Shown here: piece after piece, positions 28,965-36,329 of the stretch
Numbering within the stretch: the first letter of the stretch is position 1
Layout: every line of letters starts with the position of its first letter
Assembly (NCBI GenBank): GCA_943359365.1
Contig: CALRHG010000004.1
Coordinates: forward strand, 1-37,919
DNA from: Candidatus Nomurabacteria bacterium
GTDB lineage: Bacteria; Patescibacteriota; Minisyncoccia; Phycocordibacterales; UBA9973
Length of the DNA: 37,919 bases
Reading direction: 5' to 3'
Made by a program: the position numbers and the translations under genes
Notes under the pieces: model-generated
Told to the model about the DNA's origin: nothing
The model's database searches: none
What the model saw: the letters and a program-made list of their open reading frames with translations, nothing else

Positions 28965-31259
28965 TTATAATTTCTTGCTCTTAATTCGCAATGAATTTCC
29001 GACCACGGACACCGAAGACATCGCCATCGCGAATCCTGCAAATACCGGAGAAAGCAGCCAGCCAAAAATTGGATAAAATGCTCCAGCCGCTAATGGAATA
29101 CCTACTATATTGTATATAAATGCCCAGAAAAGATTTTGCTTGATTCCGCGCATAGTTATTTTTGAAAGTTTAATCGCTTTCACGAGCTTGGAAATATCTC
29201 CGCCTAGAAGCGTAATCCCCGCTGACTCTATCGCGACATCGGTGCCTGTCCCCATCGCAATACCAACATCCGCCTGCGCGAGCGCTGGCGCGTCGTTGAC
29301 TCCATCGCCAGCCATTGCCACAATTTTGCCCTGCAACTGCAACTCTTTTATCTTTTCCAGTTTATCTTGCGGCAACACATGGGCAACTACCTCATCAATG
29401 CCGACAAGTGATGCCATATATTTTGCGGCTCTTTCGTCATCTCCGGTAACCATGACCACTTTAATTCCAAGTTTGTGAAGATCCTGCACTGCTTTTTTTG
29501 ATTCTGCTTTTATTTCATCCGCCACCATTACAAATCCGAGCACTTTTTCTTTCGTCGAAAGAATGACTGGCGTTTTGCCCTGTGCCGTGAACTTCTCAAT
29601 TTTTGAAGCATCAAAATTAAGGCCTAAATCTCTAACAAGTTTTACATTTCCTGCATAATACTCTGCATCTTTTACTGAACCTTTAAGACCTTTACCCTGT
29701 ATGCCTTCAAAGTTTGAAACGGACTCTATTTTTATCTTTTTTTCATTCGCATAATTTACAATAGCATGAGCAATAGGGTGCTCTGATTTCTTTTCTAGAG
29801 ATGCGAGTACGGAGATCAACTCCTCATCTTTTAAGTTTGAGAAATTTTGAATATCAACAAGGGTTGGCTTGCCGATAGTGATAGTCCCTGTTTTATCGAC
29901 AATCACTGTATCAACTTTATGCAGTTTTTCAAGAGTAGCCGCATCTTTGATTAAAATTCCCTCGCGGGCTCCTTTGCCTACGCCGACGATGATTGCCGTC
30001 GGGGTAGCAAGGCCTAAGGCGCAAGGGCAAGCGATAACCAGAATACCCACAAAAGAAACTAAGCCAAATGATAGAGCTTGTGAAAATCCGAGCGAATTAG
30101 AACCCAACAAAAGCCATATTACTAGAGTTGCAAATGCAATTACCAGAACAACCGGCACAAAAACACTGGATATTTTATCCGCTAGGGCTTGGATAGGCGC
30201 CTTACTACCTTGCGCCTCTTCTACCATTTTTATAATATGCGCAAGTAAAGTTTCTGATCCAACTTTTGTAGCTTTGAATGTGAATGATCCGCTTGTGTTA
30301 ATTGTACCTGCAACAATATTGTCTCCAACTTTTTTTTGCGCTGGCATTGGTTCACCTGTAACCATTGATTCGTCAACAAAAGAATTTCCCTCGGTAATAA
30401 TTCCATCAACAGGAATCTTCGTTCCCGGCTTTACGATAATTAAATCTCCGTGTTTTACTTCATTAACTGGAATTTCTATCTCCTTGCCATCGCGCACAAC
30501 TAACGCAGTTTTTGCCTGAAGATTTAAAAGTTTCTCGATAGCATCGCCGGTCTTTAATTTTGATCGTGCTTCAAGATATTTACCAAGTGCGATAAAAGTA
30601 ATAACAATAATCGTAACATCGTAGTATGTCGCATCAACATTTATGAAAGGCTTGAGAACATCTTCAAATGCAGTTACAGCAAAGCTGTAAAGAAATGCGG
30701 CTACTGTACCAATACCAATTAAAGTATCCATATTCGCCTTTCCGTAGCGAAGAAATCTGTAAAAGCCAAGAAGGTACGGTTTACCAACAACAAAGAGAAT
30801 GTATGTCGCCATCAAGGGCAAAAGGTGGTGGAAAAATTCTTCCAGTGTAGAACTCATTTCAGAGACAACATTGTATTGTGCTAAAATTTCCCAAGCCATC
30901 ACAAAAACGCTAATGATGGCCAAGGGGATTGCTGACATGATTTTAATTTTCATGTCCTTAATTTCAGCAAGTTTTTCTTGTTTAGATTGATTAAGCCCGA
31001 GATGTGCGCCATGTTCGGAAGCTGACATCCCCATTTCGCTTGCAGTTTGCGGAACGACAAGGGAATAGCCAAGTGGCTCTAACTTTTTATTAAAAGAATC
31101 CGTATTTGTTTTATTTTCATCAAAAGATATTTTTGCATTTTCTGTGCCGTTATTTACAGAAATATTTTCCACACCATCTATTTTTTTGATGGCCCTCTCG
31201 ATAATACTGGCGCAAGAAGCGCAGTGCATTCCTTTTATTTTGTATATTTGTGTATTCAT
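28965..31259 (-). CDS. copA: Copper-translocating P1B-type ATPase
   Basis: MHCASC metal-binding domain, [40 protein letters not shown]. Confidence 0.96.
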
Positions 31260-31273
31260 AAGTTTACAAAATT

Positions 31274-31537
31274 CTACTTGCGCTTTAGCTGATAAACTTT
31301 CAAAATTTCTTTAGTGGCTTTGTCTGTTTGACCGCTCTTGATCTGATTCACCACACAGTGTCCAAGATGACTTTCCAGAAGCACATCTTCTACATTAGAA
31401 AGTCCTTGTTTTATGGCGGAAGTTTGAGTGATGATGTCAATGCAATAGGCATTTTTTTCAACCATGTTTTGGAGACCGCGAACTTGACCCTCGAGAATTT
31501 TTAATCGCCTTATTACTTTTGTTTTATTTGCTTGCAT
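31274..31537 (-). CDS. csoR: CsoR/FrmR-family copper-sensing repressor
   Basis: [53 protein letters not shown] with C-H-C ligand pattern. Confidence 0.93.
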
Positions 31538-31572: not shown

Positions 31573-31608
31573 CGCAAAGCAAAGAGATTGTGGATAACTC
31601 AGTCTTTC

Positions 31609-31905
31609 TTACAAAGAGAGTTTATGTAAGATACGGCATGGTTCAACTATACGAGGATCAATAATGTTGTAATACCCATTGAGTCCATTGCGCCGCACGG
31701 TGACAAGTCTTGCATGTCGGAGAAGAGCTAAATGCTGAGAAACATTTGCCTTGCTGATGCCTAGCTCTTTTACCAAAGCTTCCACTGGCATTTCCTGCTC
31801 ACGCAACAAATTCAAAATCTCCAGACGCTTCGGGTTGGCTAAAATTTTATATGTTACGGCATTACGCTCATAAGCCGATCTTGGGAGTGGCCGTTTAATC
31901 TTCAT
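31609..31905 (-). CDS. ArsR-family winged-helix transcriptional regulator
   Basis: YKILANPKRLEILNLLREQEMPVEALVKELGISKANVSQHLALLRHARLVTVRRNGLNGYYNI. Confidence 0.92.
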   Translation of the reverse strand: MKIKRPLPRSAYERNAVTYKILANPKRLEILNLLREQEMPVEALVKELGISKANVSQHLALLRHARLVTVRRNGLNGYYNIIDPRIVEPCRILHKLSL

Positions 31906-31922
31906 ATTTTTATTTTAATAGA

Positions 31923-31942
31923 AGTTGCAGAAAATTGCAACT
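31923..31942. promoter_or_regulatory. Putative operator AGTTGC-N8-GCAACT upstream of the arsR-like gene
   Basis: 20-bp palindrome AGTTGCAGAAAATTGCAACT, same arms and spacing as 35348-35367. Confidence 0.75.
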
Positions 31943-31944
31943 AG

Positions 31945-32466
31945 TTAGAAGTCTAACCCTTTCTTTGCTTTCTCGCCCTTTTGAAAAGGGTGTTTCATGG
32001 CTCGCATTTCTGTAACTAAACCGGCGCGCTCGGTTATTTCCCGCGGTGCATCTCGGCCCGTTGTAATAATATGTTCCACTTTGTTTTTGGCATAATCCAA
32101 AAAAGATATAGCCTGCGAAAGCGGTATTAAATTTAAGCTGATAGCATTGTGCAGTTCATCTAAAATGAGAAGGTGATATTTGCCGGAAGCAATTTCCTTT
32201 CTAGCTAAAACAAGACCTTTCTCCGCAGCTTTTCGGTGTTCTTCTATGGGTAAAGTGTCTCCCAAAATTCCCACAAATCCCTTGCCGGTTTTTATAATCT
32301 TAAAATCGGGCGAAAGGCGCGCTACAGACTTATGTTCGCCGGATTCCCACGGGCCTTTAATAAATTGCACCATAATAGCTTGTTTGCCCGCGCCTAAAAG
32401 CCTGAGCGCGTTTCCTAGAGCCGCCGTTGTTTTACCTTTTCCGTTGCCTGTAAATACTAAGAGCAT
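31945..32466 (-). CDS. cobO: Cob(I)alamin/corrinoid adenosyltransferase, CobA/BtuR/CobO type
   Basis: MLLVFTGNGKGKTTAALGNALRLLGAGKQAIMVQFIKG, LLILDELHNAISL, HIITTGRDAP; start set at 32466, adjacent to the RNR stop codon. Confidence 0.92.
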   Translation of the reverse strand: MLLVFTGNGKGKTTAALGNALRLLGAGKQAIMVQFIKGPWESGEHKSVARLSPDFKIIKTGKGFVGILGDTLPIEEHRKAAEKGLVLARKEIASGKYHLLILDELHNAISLNLIPLSQAISFLDYAKNKVEHIITTGRDAPREITERAGLVTEMRAMKHPFQKGEKAKKGLDF

Positions 32467-32467
32467 A

Positions 32468-34750
32468 TTATATTTCGCAGAGTCCGCCCACACAGGCAAG
32501 CTCTCGTTTAACTTCAGTCTCGTCGTCTTTTTCGTAGGTGACAATTTTAGAGAAGTCCAAGTCGCCCAAACGTTTTTTCATTTCGTCATATTTTTCTTTC
32601 GTAATTACCTGATAAGGAGAAAGTTGATATATATGATTTGATCGTGGAAGAAACGAAAGCCCGCCTACTAAATCCCAATTTTCATAAACCCAATTTGCGA
32701 CAGAAAGCCATTCCTCATCTCCGACAGAAACTGTAACTGACGGATTATGTTCCGTAAAATGTTGCTTTACGACTTTCCAATGTTCTAATTGAGCAATTGC
32801 ATCTATATCATTTTTACAAATAGCACCATCTGGAGCTTTCACTGGAAATTCAAGTACAAATGTTGTTGCAGTTAGAAGTGTTTGTCCGACTTCAGGAAAG
32901 TAGGGAACTCCTTGATCCTTGAGCATTTTAAAAAGCCCATCAGTAGCTGAAATACGAATACGGCGTATGTAATATGGCGCATGCCGAGGATGCATGCCGC
33001 TTGCGCAATCAACGGTTTGCGAAACTGTTCCTGATGGTTTTACACAGGTAATACATGTTGATTGACTGATGCCAAAACGCTTTGCGTATTTTTTGTTGGT
33101 TTCAATCGCCACCATTTTCATTTTTTCAAGAATTTTAGGATCACGGACTAATTCACAATCCCATTGTCCGGTAATTGATACGCCGAGAAGTCTTTCGCTT
33201 TCACAATTTTTCTTCCACTCTTTGGATAAGTATGGAAAGTAGGTGAGAGTTGATTGGTATGTTCCTAATATCGTCGCGATGCGGACTTTTTTAAGCAAAG
33301 TCTCCTCGGTGTCATCCGCGCGAGCGACGATTTCGGAAAGATTGCAAAACTGTTTTGACTGTAGGACGATTTCGCCGCAAGGATTTGTTCCCCATGACGG
33401 GTATATGCCACTCTTAAACTGATCGAGTCTTCTCTTTGGTAAAGTGCCCTGAAGTCCGCCGCGGTTAAATATTCCCCGCTCGCCTGAGCCGCTTTTCATA
33501 AGCGCCATCCATTCGTCGAGGAAATCTGTGGTTGTGGGTTTTGAAAGATATACCGCGGAATTGTTTGCGAGCATACGCTGTCCTTCAGAGATGTAAAATT
33601 GTCCTTTTTTTGAATCCCGAATCATTTCATCATCTAAATCAGAAAGTGAAATCATCGCGCTTCTGCGAACGCCTCCTGCCACGACACATTCACCTATTTT
33701 GCAAATAATGTCGTGCGCGTCTAGATTGGATAAACGTCTGCCTTCCCGACGGAGAATTCGTTCGCGAGCGAAATCAAGAAGCGAATGAAGCGGAGAAGGC
33801 CCCGAGCTTTTTCCTCCCATGGTTTTCAAACGCGAGCCGGCAGGGCGAATGAGAGAATAATCAAACATGATGTCACTTCCCGCAAACCATGTTTTGAGCC
33901 CCAGGGCAAACGCATCGGCCCAGCCTTCTTTGCTGTCTGGAATAATATACGGGGGTAATTTCTTGCCTGTTTGTTTTTGAATTTGCGGAAGCGCCTGGAT
34001 GTTTTCACTTTCTACTGACCAGCCAACGCCGGTTCCGCACATAGATATGTACATAATCTCGGCAAAATCCTGAAATGTTCTTGGTGCGATAAAAGAGCAA
34101 TTATAGGCGCAGACATTGGTCCTCCTCGCGGCCTTGCCTGCAAACTGGAGAAGCCGCATCGATGGCATTGCTTCTTGTTTCAAGATCGCTTCGCGAATTT
34201 CCGCGTATTCTGCTTCAGTAAGTTTGCCATTTTGATTATCACGCATAAAATCAATATAACGATCAATAGTTTCAATCCATGTTTCGCGCCGGCCTTCTTC
34301 GGGGATCCATCTGGCATATGTTCGGTAGTAAACAAATTCAGCAAGCGGATTTCTAAAATATTTTTTCCCTTCCGAAACGAGTTTTTTAACTTTCTCGGGC
34401 ACGAAACCAACTTTTTGCCGCACTAAAGACCTTTCTTTTCGATACAGAATGTAGGATTTTGCTGTTTGGAGGAAGTTCGCGGCGATAAGTTCGTTTTCTA
34501 CTATGTCTTGTATTGTTTCAACATGGGGAACAAATTTTTTGATCTTTTTTTCCTTCCTTAGCGTAATTAGCGCGTCCAAAACTTTATTCATGACCCCTCC
34601 GGCATATATCTCGTCGCCTTCTTTTACTGATTGCATCGCTCGGAAAACGGCGCGAGTAATGCGTTTTTCGTCAAAGGGAACAATCATTCCATCGCGCTTC
34701 TGTATGTATTCTAGTGAAGAATATTTTTTCCTATTTATATTGTTTTTCAT
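32468..34750 (-). CDS. nrdJ: Adenosylcobalamin-dependent (class II) ribonucleoside triphosphate reductase
   Basis: N-terminal ATP-cone-like segment, NPCGEIVLQSKQFCNLSE, CVKPSGTVSQTVDCASGMHPRHAPYYIRRIR, C-terminal CVGGLC. Confidence 0.92.
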   Translation of the reverse strand: MKNNINRKKYSSLEYIQKRDGMIVPFDEKRITRAVFRAMQSVKEGDEIYAGGVMNKVLDALITLRKEKKIKKFVPHVETIQDIVENELIAANFLQTAKSYILYRKERSLVRQKVGFVPEKVKKLVSEGKKYFRNPLAEFVYYRTYARWIPEEGRRETWIETIDRYIDFMRDNQNGKLTEAEYAEIREAILKQEAMPSMRLLQFAGKAARRTNVCAYNCSFIAPRTFQDFAEIMYISMCGTGVGWSVESENIQALPQIQKQTGKKLPPYIIPDSKEGWADAFALGLKTWFAGSDIMFDYSLIRPAGSRLKTMGGKSSGPSPLHSLLDFARERILRREGRRLSNLDAHDIICKIGECVVAGGVRRSAMISLSDLDDEMIRDSKKGQFYISEGQRMLANNSAVYLSKPTTTDFLDEWMALMKSGSGERGIFNRGGLQGTLPKRRLDQFKSGIYPSWGTNPCGEIVLQSKQFCNLSEIVARADDTEETLLKKVRIATILGTYQSTLTYFPYLSKEWKKNCESERLLGVSITGQWDCELVRDPKILEKMKMVAIETNKKYAKRFGISQSTCITCVKPSGTVSQTVDCASGMHPRHAPYYIRRIRISATDGLFKMLKDQGVPYFPEVGQTLLTATTFVLEFPVKAPDGAICKNDIDAIAQLEHWKVVKQHFTEHNPSVTVSVGDEEWLSVANWVYENWDLVGGLSFLPRSNHIYQLSPYQVITKEKYDEMKKRLGDLDFSKIVTYEKDDETEVKRELACVGGLCEI

Positions 34751-35292
34751 ACTCGTTTTGGATTAAAAATATTTATCAATGATTCTGTTTCAAATTTTTT
34801 ATTTTCAATAACGAATCTATAAATGAGAGGAGAAAGCACAATTGCAAAACCGATATTGCCTGCAAGATGAAGCAGGGTGAATGGAATTTGCCCAGTGAGC
34901 GCTTCCATAAATGGTTGGTGAAAAAATAGCGGTCCCACAGAAAGGCCGGTAACGATATCAAAAGCGAGTGTACCCATAATGGCAAACCTTGCATAATTCA
35001 ATGAGTTGTTGCTTCTTTTTTTAAAATAGATCGATGCCCATAATCCCAAAAGTCCATAGGTGCTGGCTGTTATAAAAGTCCACATCCCAACTTTGCCCGT
35101 TAAAACATCAAAGAGAACCATGCTCAAAAATGCGAATAAAAACCCTGCTATCTTTCCATAGGCTTTTGAGAACGGCATCACTGTTGCCAGAATCGGTTCA
35201 ATGTTTGGTGGACGAAACGGAATAAGCCGGATGAGTAGGCAGGCAATGAACCCAATAATGTATTTGAACCAATTCTTTTTGTATGCTTCCAT
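34747..35292 (-). CDS. ECF-type transporter S component-like membrane protein (putative corrinoid uptake)
   Basis: Hydrophobic; IPFRPPNIEPILATVMPFSKAYGKIAGFLFAFLSMVLFDVLTGKVGMWTFITASTYGLLG; ATGA overlap with nrdJ; start set at 35292 (MEAYKKNWFKY). Confidence 0.75.
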   Translation of the reverse strand: MEAYKKNWFKYIIGFIACLLIRLIPFRPPNIEPILATVMPFSKAYGKIAGFLFAFLSMVLFDVLTGKVGMWTFITASTYGLLGLWASIYFKKRSNNSLNYARFAIMGTLAFDIVTGLSVGPLFFHQPFMEALTGQIPFTLLHLAGNIGFAIVLSPLIYRFVIENKKFETESLINIFNPKRV

Positions 35293-35332
35293 GGTAAGAT
35301 TTGTTAAGACCGCTTGGCAACACTCCAAGAGG

Positions 35333-35385
35333 GGTGTATAATAGTATAGTTGCATAGTTTCGCAACTACTAAACCATTATACACC
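35333..35385. promoter_or_regulatory. Nested palindromic control region of the B12/RNR operon
   Basis: Outer 10-bp IR GGTGTATAAT/ATTATACACC (35333-35342/35376-35385); inner TAGTTGC-N8-GCAACTA (35347-35353/35362-35368) next to a TATACT -10 on the minus strand. Confidence 0.75.
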
Positions 35386-35438
35386 AGAGTGGTCGCCTCG
35401 TGTAAAGTGGATAACTTAATTATTAAATTTTATTTAAA

Positions 35439-35900
35439 ATGACAAAAGAAGATTTAAAAAGGGAAGCGCTCAAATTTCTCGATAATCAAGTTACCGCCGC
35501 AGTTTCTACGGTATCTATGGATGGCGAACCCCAAGTGTCGACGGTGTATTATTATGCAGATGCTGATTTAAATTTTTATTTCATTACCGCCAAAGGTTCT
35601 AAAAAGTTAAAAAATATTGAGGCGAATAAAAAAGTTGCTATAGTTGTCGGATTTGGGCCCGCCCCCATTACTATTCAAGCTGGTGGAATTGCAGAAACAA
35701 ACCAAGATTTCAAAGAAGAATTTATTGATAAGATTTTTAAAAAAATAAATTTTCATACCTTAGACCAATTGCCGTTTTTAAACCTTGAAAAGGAAGGGCT
35801 TGTTATTTTCAAAGTTAAACCAACATGGCTGACTTTTTTAAATTTTGACAAAGAAGGTCATCCTGATACATACAGCCAGGATTTTAATAAATTGATATAA
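35439..35900 (+). CDS. Pyridoxamine 5'-phosphate oxidase-like (PPOX split-barrel) protein
   Basis: TAAVSTVSMDGEPQVSTVYYYADADLNFYFITAKGSKKLKNIEANKKVAIVV. Confidence 0.85.
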   Translation: MTKEDLKREALKFLDNQVTAAVSTVSMDGEPQVSTVYYYADADLNFYFITAKGSKKLKNIEANKKVAIVVGFGPAPITIQAGGIAETNQDFKEEFIDKIFKKINFHTLDQLPFLNLEKEGLVIFKVKPTWLTFLNFDKEGHPDTYSQDFNKLI

Positions 35901-35948: not shown

Positions 35949-36329
35949 ATGTTTAGCAATCTTATGACAAATGAAAAGAAGCTTGAGTGGATATTAAAAA
36001 TAGGTGTTGCGGGAGAGTTCTTAGGGCACGGCGTCTTTGCTGTATTAGGTAAAGCTGATTGGATAAAGTGGACGGAGCAATTGACCGGATTTGACACAGC
36101 CACCGCTACGACATTTATGTTTATTGTGGGAGTAATAGATATTTTGTTAGCAATTCTTGTGCTTGTTAAGCCGATAAAACCTGTTTTGCTCTGGATGGCG
36201 TTTTGGGGCTTTTGGACTGCCCTTGTGAGACCATTAGTAGGTATGCCAATCTGGGATTTTATAGAAAGGTTCGCTAACTGGGCTGCGCCTTTAGCTCTCT
36301 ACTTCTTGATACCAAAGAAAAATAACTAA
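35949..36329 (+). CDS. DoxX-like membrane protein
   Basis: Four TM segments; ILKIGVAGEFLGHGVFAVLGKADW, WTALVRPLVGMPIWDFIERFANWAAPLAL. Confidence 0.65.
   Translation: MFSNLMTNEKKLEWILKIGVAGEFLGHGVFAVLGKADWIKWTEQLTGFDTATATTFMFIVGVIDILLAILVLVKPIKPVLLWMAFWGFWTALVRPLVGMPIWDFIERFANWAAPLALYFLIPKKNN

Follow-up and report, generated by a model that had tools for sequence, protein, structure and literature searches.

A putative autoregulated ArsR-type repressor with candidate operators at its own gene and at a class II ribonucleotide reductase operon of Nomurabacteria

Cells depend on a supply of ribonucleotide reductase to make DNA, and most bacteria control this supply through NrdR. How might a reductase operon be regulated in a bacterium that lacks this repressor? 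The question is raised by a stretch of “Candidatus Nomurabacteria” DNA of 37,919 nucleotides (contig CALRHG010000004.1, assembly GCA_943359365.1), here called the window, which is one of 46 contigs in a genome of 664 kb. An arsR-like gene lies there next to an operon for an adenosylcobalamin-dependent class II ribonucleotide reductase (NrdJ). A sequence-only reading of the window had pointed out the same palindrome, AGTTGC-N8-GCAACT, at the arsR and the operon promoters, and had proposed that the ArsR protein, rather than NrdR, represses both. We now consider it probable that this protein is an autoregulated repressor which gates the oxygen-independent reductase in genomes that encode an oxygen-dependent one as well. 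NrdR is indeed missing: TIGR00244 does not exceed its cut-off in any of 120 relatives sampled from the order, while control genomes do score, and the two ATP-cone matches in the genome under study are NrdJ and NrdA, neither of them NrdR. Other Patescibacteria genomes contain ~290-residue proteins with an N-terminal ATP-cone and, judged by eye, an apparent Mrr-type nuclease domain (e.g., L222:391-1245); these are not NrdR.

The genes concerned are read from the minus strand. The first gene of the operon encodes an energy-coupling factor (ECF)-type transporter S component (34747..35292; PF07155, 35.2 bits, cut-off 26.7), which is conserved at this place in relatives and whose substrate, from the operon context, is probably cobalamin. 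It is followed by nrdJ (32468..34750) and by cobO/btuR for ATP:corrinoid adenosyltransferase (31945..32544; PF02572, 177.5 bits). NrdJ carries an N-terminal ATP-cone, and PF03477, PF17975, PF21995, and PF02867 are all over cut-off; although its TIGR02505 score of 285.7 bits is under the strict cut-off of 340, its B12-dependent reductase domains identify it as a predicted class II enzyme. Some nrdJ genes elsewhere have in-frame inserts of about 1.1 to 1.4 kb near residue 455, possibly inteins (L028:1312-5112; G113 contig 6, 10278-11416). The arsR gene (31609..31905) encodes a 98-residue predicted winged-helix repressor of the ArsR/SmtB family (PF01022, 54.7 bits, cut-off 22; NF033788, 81.8 bits, cut-off 55). 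A class I reductase is found on contig 14 of the same genome, with NrdA present and NrdB cut by the contig end; no operator was found upstream of this nrdA.

Both 20-mers were located as reported, at 31923..31942 (operator 1) and 35348..35367 (operator 2, AGTTGC-ATAGTTTC-GCAACT), and the window holds no third site: there are two exact matches in it and none in 100 dinucleotide shuffles. The whole genome likewise has two exact matches and none to a reversed control pattern. A random genome-wide scatter of the motif, which had been named as an outcome that would speak against regulation, is not what was found, as the only copies are those at the two promoters. Because there are just these two, the palindrome is not a dispersed repeat, and a terminator hairpin was ruled out as well, with no U-run and no hit in a terminator scan.

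Operator 1 overlaps the −35 element and the spacer of the arsR promoter TTGCAA-17-TAAAAT (31912..31940, minus strand), as originally described. An alignment of relatives shows the −35, operator, and −10 in an unchanged order, so that, as in ArsR-type autorepression, an operator inside the promoter of the regulator's own gene is kept upstream of orthologous arsR genes. For the operon, a better −10 candidate than the TATACT named earlier is a conserved TATAAT (35381-35376, minus strand), across the operator from it. This TATAAT belongs to the predicted promoter TTTACA-19-TATAAT (35376..35406, minus strand), which was read directly; its 19-bp spacer falls outside the 16 to 18 bp covered by the promoter scan. 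Operator 2, also kept in the operon promoters of relatives, starts 8 bp downstream of this −10 and would therefore sit at the transcription start. A stronger promoter on the opposite strand, TTGGCA-17-TATAAT (35314..35342, plus strand; 11 of 12 matches, −10 conserved in most relatives), faces the operon promoter across operator 2 and is directed toward genes for a PNPOx-fold protein and membrane proteins. One ArsR dimer bound at operator 2 could block both.

The pairing of regulator and site is conserved. Homology searches with the ArsR protein gave 79 loci, and an orthologue (89% identity or more) is present in 9 of 72 genomes of the same genus; incompleteness of metagenome-assembled genomes can hide genes. 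A search of relatives for co-occurrence of the motif and arsR, which the sequence-only reading had suggested, found the exact motif in 9/9 same-genus ArsR carriers and in 3/63 noncarriers (p = 2.6e-9). Among these three, G001 has its site at the nrdJ operon and the other two have theirs at unrelated loci; the G001 contig breaks off before the arsR position, within the gene found ahead of arsR in related clusters. The operator is otherwise absent from the 44 ArsR-less nrdJ loci with readable upstream DNA. Exact or near-exact sites precede both arsR and the operon head in Nomurabacteria loci L005-L017, and in the aligned loci the operator arms are fixed, the spacers variable, and the flanks diverged. 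For the pattern RGTTGCN8GCAACY, 20 of the 23 sites in 16 ArsR genomes are at an arsR, reductase, or PNPOx-arsR promoter. A third exact operator in one ArsR genome (L228:2092-2111; G030 contig 4, 144091-144110) lies inside a hairpin with 12-bp arms between ribosomal protein genes.

In loci outside the genus, a compact AGTTTCGAAACT-like sequence is often present in the start region of arsR (L021, L022, L023, L028, and L031). The related sequence AGTTGCGAAACT is contained, together with one extra half-site, in the operon sites of the genus; operator 2 itself, read on the minus strand, is also a compact AGTTGCGAAACT dyad of overlapping half-sites plus a third half-site. Because of this relationship, AGTTNC probably represents the ancestral half-site unit, of which the N8 palindrome would be one arrangement.

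Which genomes have the regulator? In the 72 genomes, NrdJ is found in 58 and NrdB in 20, with both in 9, NrdJ only in 49, NrdB only in 11, and neither in 3. ArsR is present in exactly the nine that have both and in 0/49 NrdJ-only and 0/11 NrdB-only genomes (Fisher p = 1.2e-11, uncorrected for relatedness; the value overstates independence because the NrdJ tree offers too few independent pairs). The idea that ArsR accompanies every nrdJ is false, given the 49 NrdJ-only genomes without it. The NrdJ tree requires at least four changes in the presence of ArsR, on well-supported branches and all matched by NrdB, and 24 of the 29 ArsR genomes reached through homologues have NrdB. The regulator is not tied to one reductase. 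In L006, ArsR is 90% identical although NrdJ is of a different subtype and only 58% identical (L006 and G053 agree in site position and NrdB score). The arsR gene of L011, whose product is 89% identical, is the last in a run that includes nrdD and a radical-SAM activase, and the operator precedes nrdD. More distant homologues occur with nrdD (L025), with a longer nrdJ (L023 and L024), or with nrdJ and the adenosyltransferase (L026, L028, L029, L031, and L032). In L118, which belongs to another family, an ArsR-like gene lies one kilobase from nrdA; it encodes a different ArsR, 32% identical and without the motif. From these associations with nrdJ, nrdD, and NrdB, the regulator appears to follow the oxygen-independent reductase of whichever class, mostly in genomes that also hold an oxygen-dependent one.

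The ArsR protein belongs to the ArsR/SmtB family, with an HTH_5 winged helix and the α1-α5 fold. Its AlphaFold2 model (predicted local distance difference test score, 95.9) has the ArsR order of elements, with helices at residues 9-22, 25-36, 41-48, 52-64 (recognition helix), and 84-96 and two strands, and its fold matches are HlyU, NolR, Rv0081, SmtB, and CzrA (Foldseek, E down to 2e-7). Residues R27, K52, N54, S56, Q57, H58, G74, and C90 are invariant in 52 homologues. Most of these are part of the DNA-reading helix or adjoin it; C90, the single cysteine of the protein, lies outside it, in helix α5. A thiol/redox or reactive-sulfur signal read through C90 is our best available guess. The protein is not a canonical two-cysteine persulfide sensor, as it lacks the second cysteine of the α2/α5 pair and its C90 is not aligned to the α5 cysteine of HlyU; the BigR model scores 45.2 bits against a cut-off of 155. 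In homologues from Nitrospirae and other phyla, a second cysteine does occur near residue 19, and several of these homologues are near genes for DsrE, a sulfide-dehydrogenase-like flavoprotein, or a metallo-beta-lactamase-fold protein.

We propose that an ArsR homodimer would bind AGTTNC/GNAACT half-sites, presumably directly, at the two places. At the arsR promoter it would cover the −35 and the spacer and so repress its own gene, and at the reductase operon, where the site lies between two face-to-face −10 elements and over the predicted transcription start, it would block RNA polymerase and keep the S-component/nrdJ/cobO operon off. In a cell with the oxygen-dependent class I NrdAB, ArsR would in this way restrain the oxygen-independent alternative, class II NrdJ or, among relatives, class III NrdDG, until some signal lifts the block. 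Oxygen loss or a thiol or reactive-sulfur change at C90 may be that signal; this is the weakest step. The genome comparisons argue for the mechanism through the conserved operator pair, the co-occurrence of ArsR, the absence of NrdR, and the restriction to two-class genomes within the genus. The earlier claim that ArsR represses itself and the operon thus stands as regards a conserved cis/trans pair at arsR and the reductase operon; that the effect is repression rather than activation we infer from the ArsR family and the operator geometry.

Several observations weigh against this proposal. The tree-corrected test has 4 independent pairs and gives p = 0.125, too few for significance. G001 has the operator, and NrdB was not found there; G007 has NrdB and NrdD and no ArsR. 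In L021 and L022, where NrdB was not found, an ArsR 70% identical to ours precedes a multicopper oxidase gene, so the wider ArsR family is not reductase-specific. The spacing of the operator also varies by clade (N8 versus compact), which makes the binding mode ambiguous.

Other readings concern the ligand. The operon looks like a B12 module, consisting of an S component, an adenosyltransferase, and a B12-dependent reductase, and the sequence-only reading had offered corrinoid as a candidate signal; ArsR would then sense corrinoid or cobalt and tune cobalamin uptake, adenosylation, and NrdJ together. This suggestion did not fare well. Adenosylcobalamin (AdoCbl) or AdoCbl-II riboswitches are present both in clusters with this ArsR (L006, L007, and L020) and in loci without it (L133, L142, and L145). 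These elements follow nrdJ and the adenosyltransferase on the downstream side and, where readable, precede DUF4430 genes. The clusters thus already hold a B12 sensor, and nrdD, served in L011 by a near-identical ArsR and the same operator, needs no B12, so the ArsR regulon is not B12-specific. With ArsR also lacking from the 49 NrdJ-only genomes, the ones that depend most on B12, we regard corrinoid sensing as very unlikely. Metal sensing, for instance of copper or zinc, is suggested by membership in the ArsR/SmtB family and by neighbors that hint at metal stress: csoR and copA adjoin arsR here, in L008, and partly in L012, and a multicopper oxidase gene is beside arsR in L021 and L022 and beside the operator in L017. 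Canonical sites are absent, however. When the protein is aligned to SmtB, whose α5 site we take to consist of Asp, His, His, and Glu, only D83 is kept; the α3 CxC is missing, in line with the remark that the protein lacks obvious Cys-rich metal motifs, and the CmtR model gives 40.3 bits, under its cut-off of 150. As csoR has a strong promoter of its own and no operator, and most ArsR loci are without copper genes, a metal sensor seems unlikely.

Two further readings leave the oxygen switch aside. As a substitute for NrdR, which is missing throughout the sample, ArsR might report deoxynucleoside triphosphate (dNTP) shortage or replication stress independently of oxygen, and a conserved DnaA-box-like element in the same operon promoter would suit this role. 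Yet a 98-residue protein without a nucleotide-binding domain is ill matched to it, the NrdJ-only genomes most in need of dNTP feedback have no ArsR, and the class I nrdA of the genome has no operator, all of which makes this explanation quite improbable. Alternatively, ArsR could travel with an nrdJ cassette that moves horizontally, its main targets being PNPOx, small membrane proteins, or multicopper oxidase, whose genes flank the operator in several loci; in L017 the operator immediately precedes a PNPOx-arsR pair with no reductase adjoining. The operator is nevertheless found at three kinds of reductase operon (nrdD and two nrdJ subtypes), and the exact tracking of the dual-reductase state in the genus also disagrees with a passenger, so we think this improbable, about as much as metal sensing.

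The surroundings of the operon contain further features. The divergent gene read from the plus-strand promoter (35439..35900, plus strand; PF01243, 53.6 bits) encodes the PNPOx-fold flavin protein and is a possible member of the ArsR regulon. Next to it is a gene for a small membrane protein without a family match (35949..36329, plus strand), a homologue of which is often the divergent neighbor of the operon (L007, L009, and L010). Just upstream of the operon −35, the DnaA-box-like GTTATCCAC (35407..35415, minus strand), an element separate from the ArsR system, is found in 7/7 ArsR-containing and 16/44 ArsR-less nrdJ operon promoters of the genus, and replication-linked control of nrdJ is possible. 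GTTATCCAC occurs 18 times in the genome, against about 3 expected from window shuffles, including a copy at 31590-31598 (minus strand) before csoR-copA. This copper module (31274-31537 and 28965-31259) is directly downstream of arsR and has the promoter TTGACA-17-TATACT. DUF4430 proteins (L015:4112-5962, L005:3583-4419, and L015:3666-4127), some with cyclase-like repeats, are encoded in clusters that in relatives carry AdoCbl riboswitches, and they plausibly bind cobalamin at the cell surface.

Without NrdR, a large order of minimal-genome bacteria must regulate its reductase differently. A local repressor together with its operator, subject to the genomic rule that it is present only where two reductase classes coexist, would be a concrete and testable answer; it would also hint at how bacteria this reduced may manage shifts between oxic and anoxic conditions. 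A literature search for Patescibacteria with reductase and cobalamin returned nothing relevant, and we found no paper describing ArsR control of ribonucleotide reductase, which is weak evidence since subscription journals were mostly outside the search. The described reductase regulators include NrdR, FNR, Fur, DnaA, and others (PMC4009431).

Known systems resemble the proposed one in part. A B12 riboswitch on the class I operon of Streptomyces chooses between class I and class II reductases, the same choice as proposed here; that sensor is an RNA acting on the class I operon, whereas here a protein would act on the class II operon and the riboswitches sit at other genes of the cluster. FNR is a global Fe−S regulator, and the ArsR protein is, by contrast, local and cluster-encoded. 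The likeness to FNR action on nrdDG in Escherichia coli is in an oxygen-related switch to an alternative reductase class (PMC4009431). With the persulfide sensors HlyU, SqrR, and BigR, our ArsR plausibly shares thiol chemistry. HlyU is closest to it by sequence and fold, and the outgroup homologues lie near the DsrE, flavoprotein, or metallo-beta-lactamase-fold genes named above; the known members use a cysteine pair in α2 and α5 (PMC10509353), while this ArsR has one cysteine, elsewhere in α5. With NrdR, described as a dedicated and often self-regulating repressor of reductase operons (PMC9110341), the candidate shares its overall role. NrdR, however, is a Zn-ribbon/ATP-cone nucleotide sensor for all classes, and the regulator proposed here is a winged-helix ArsR protein that would serve one class in genomes without NrdR.

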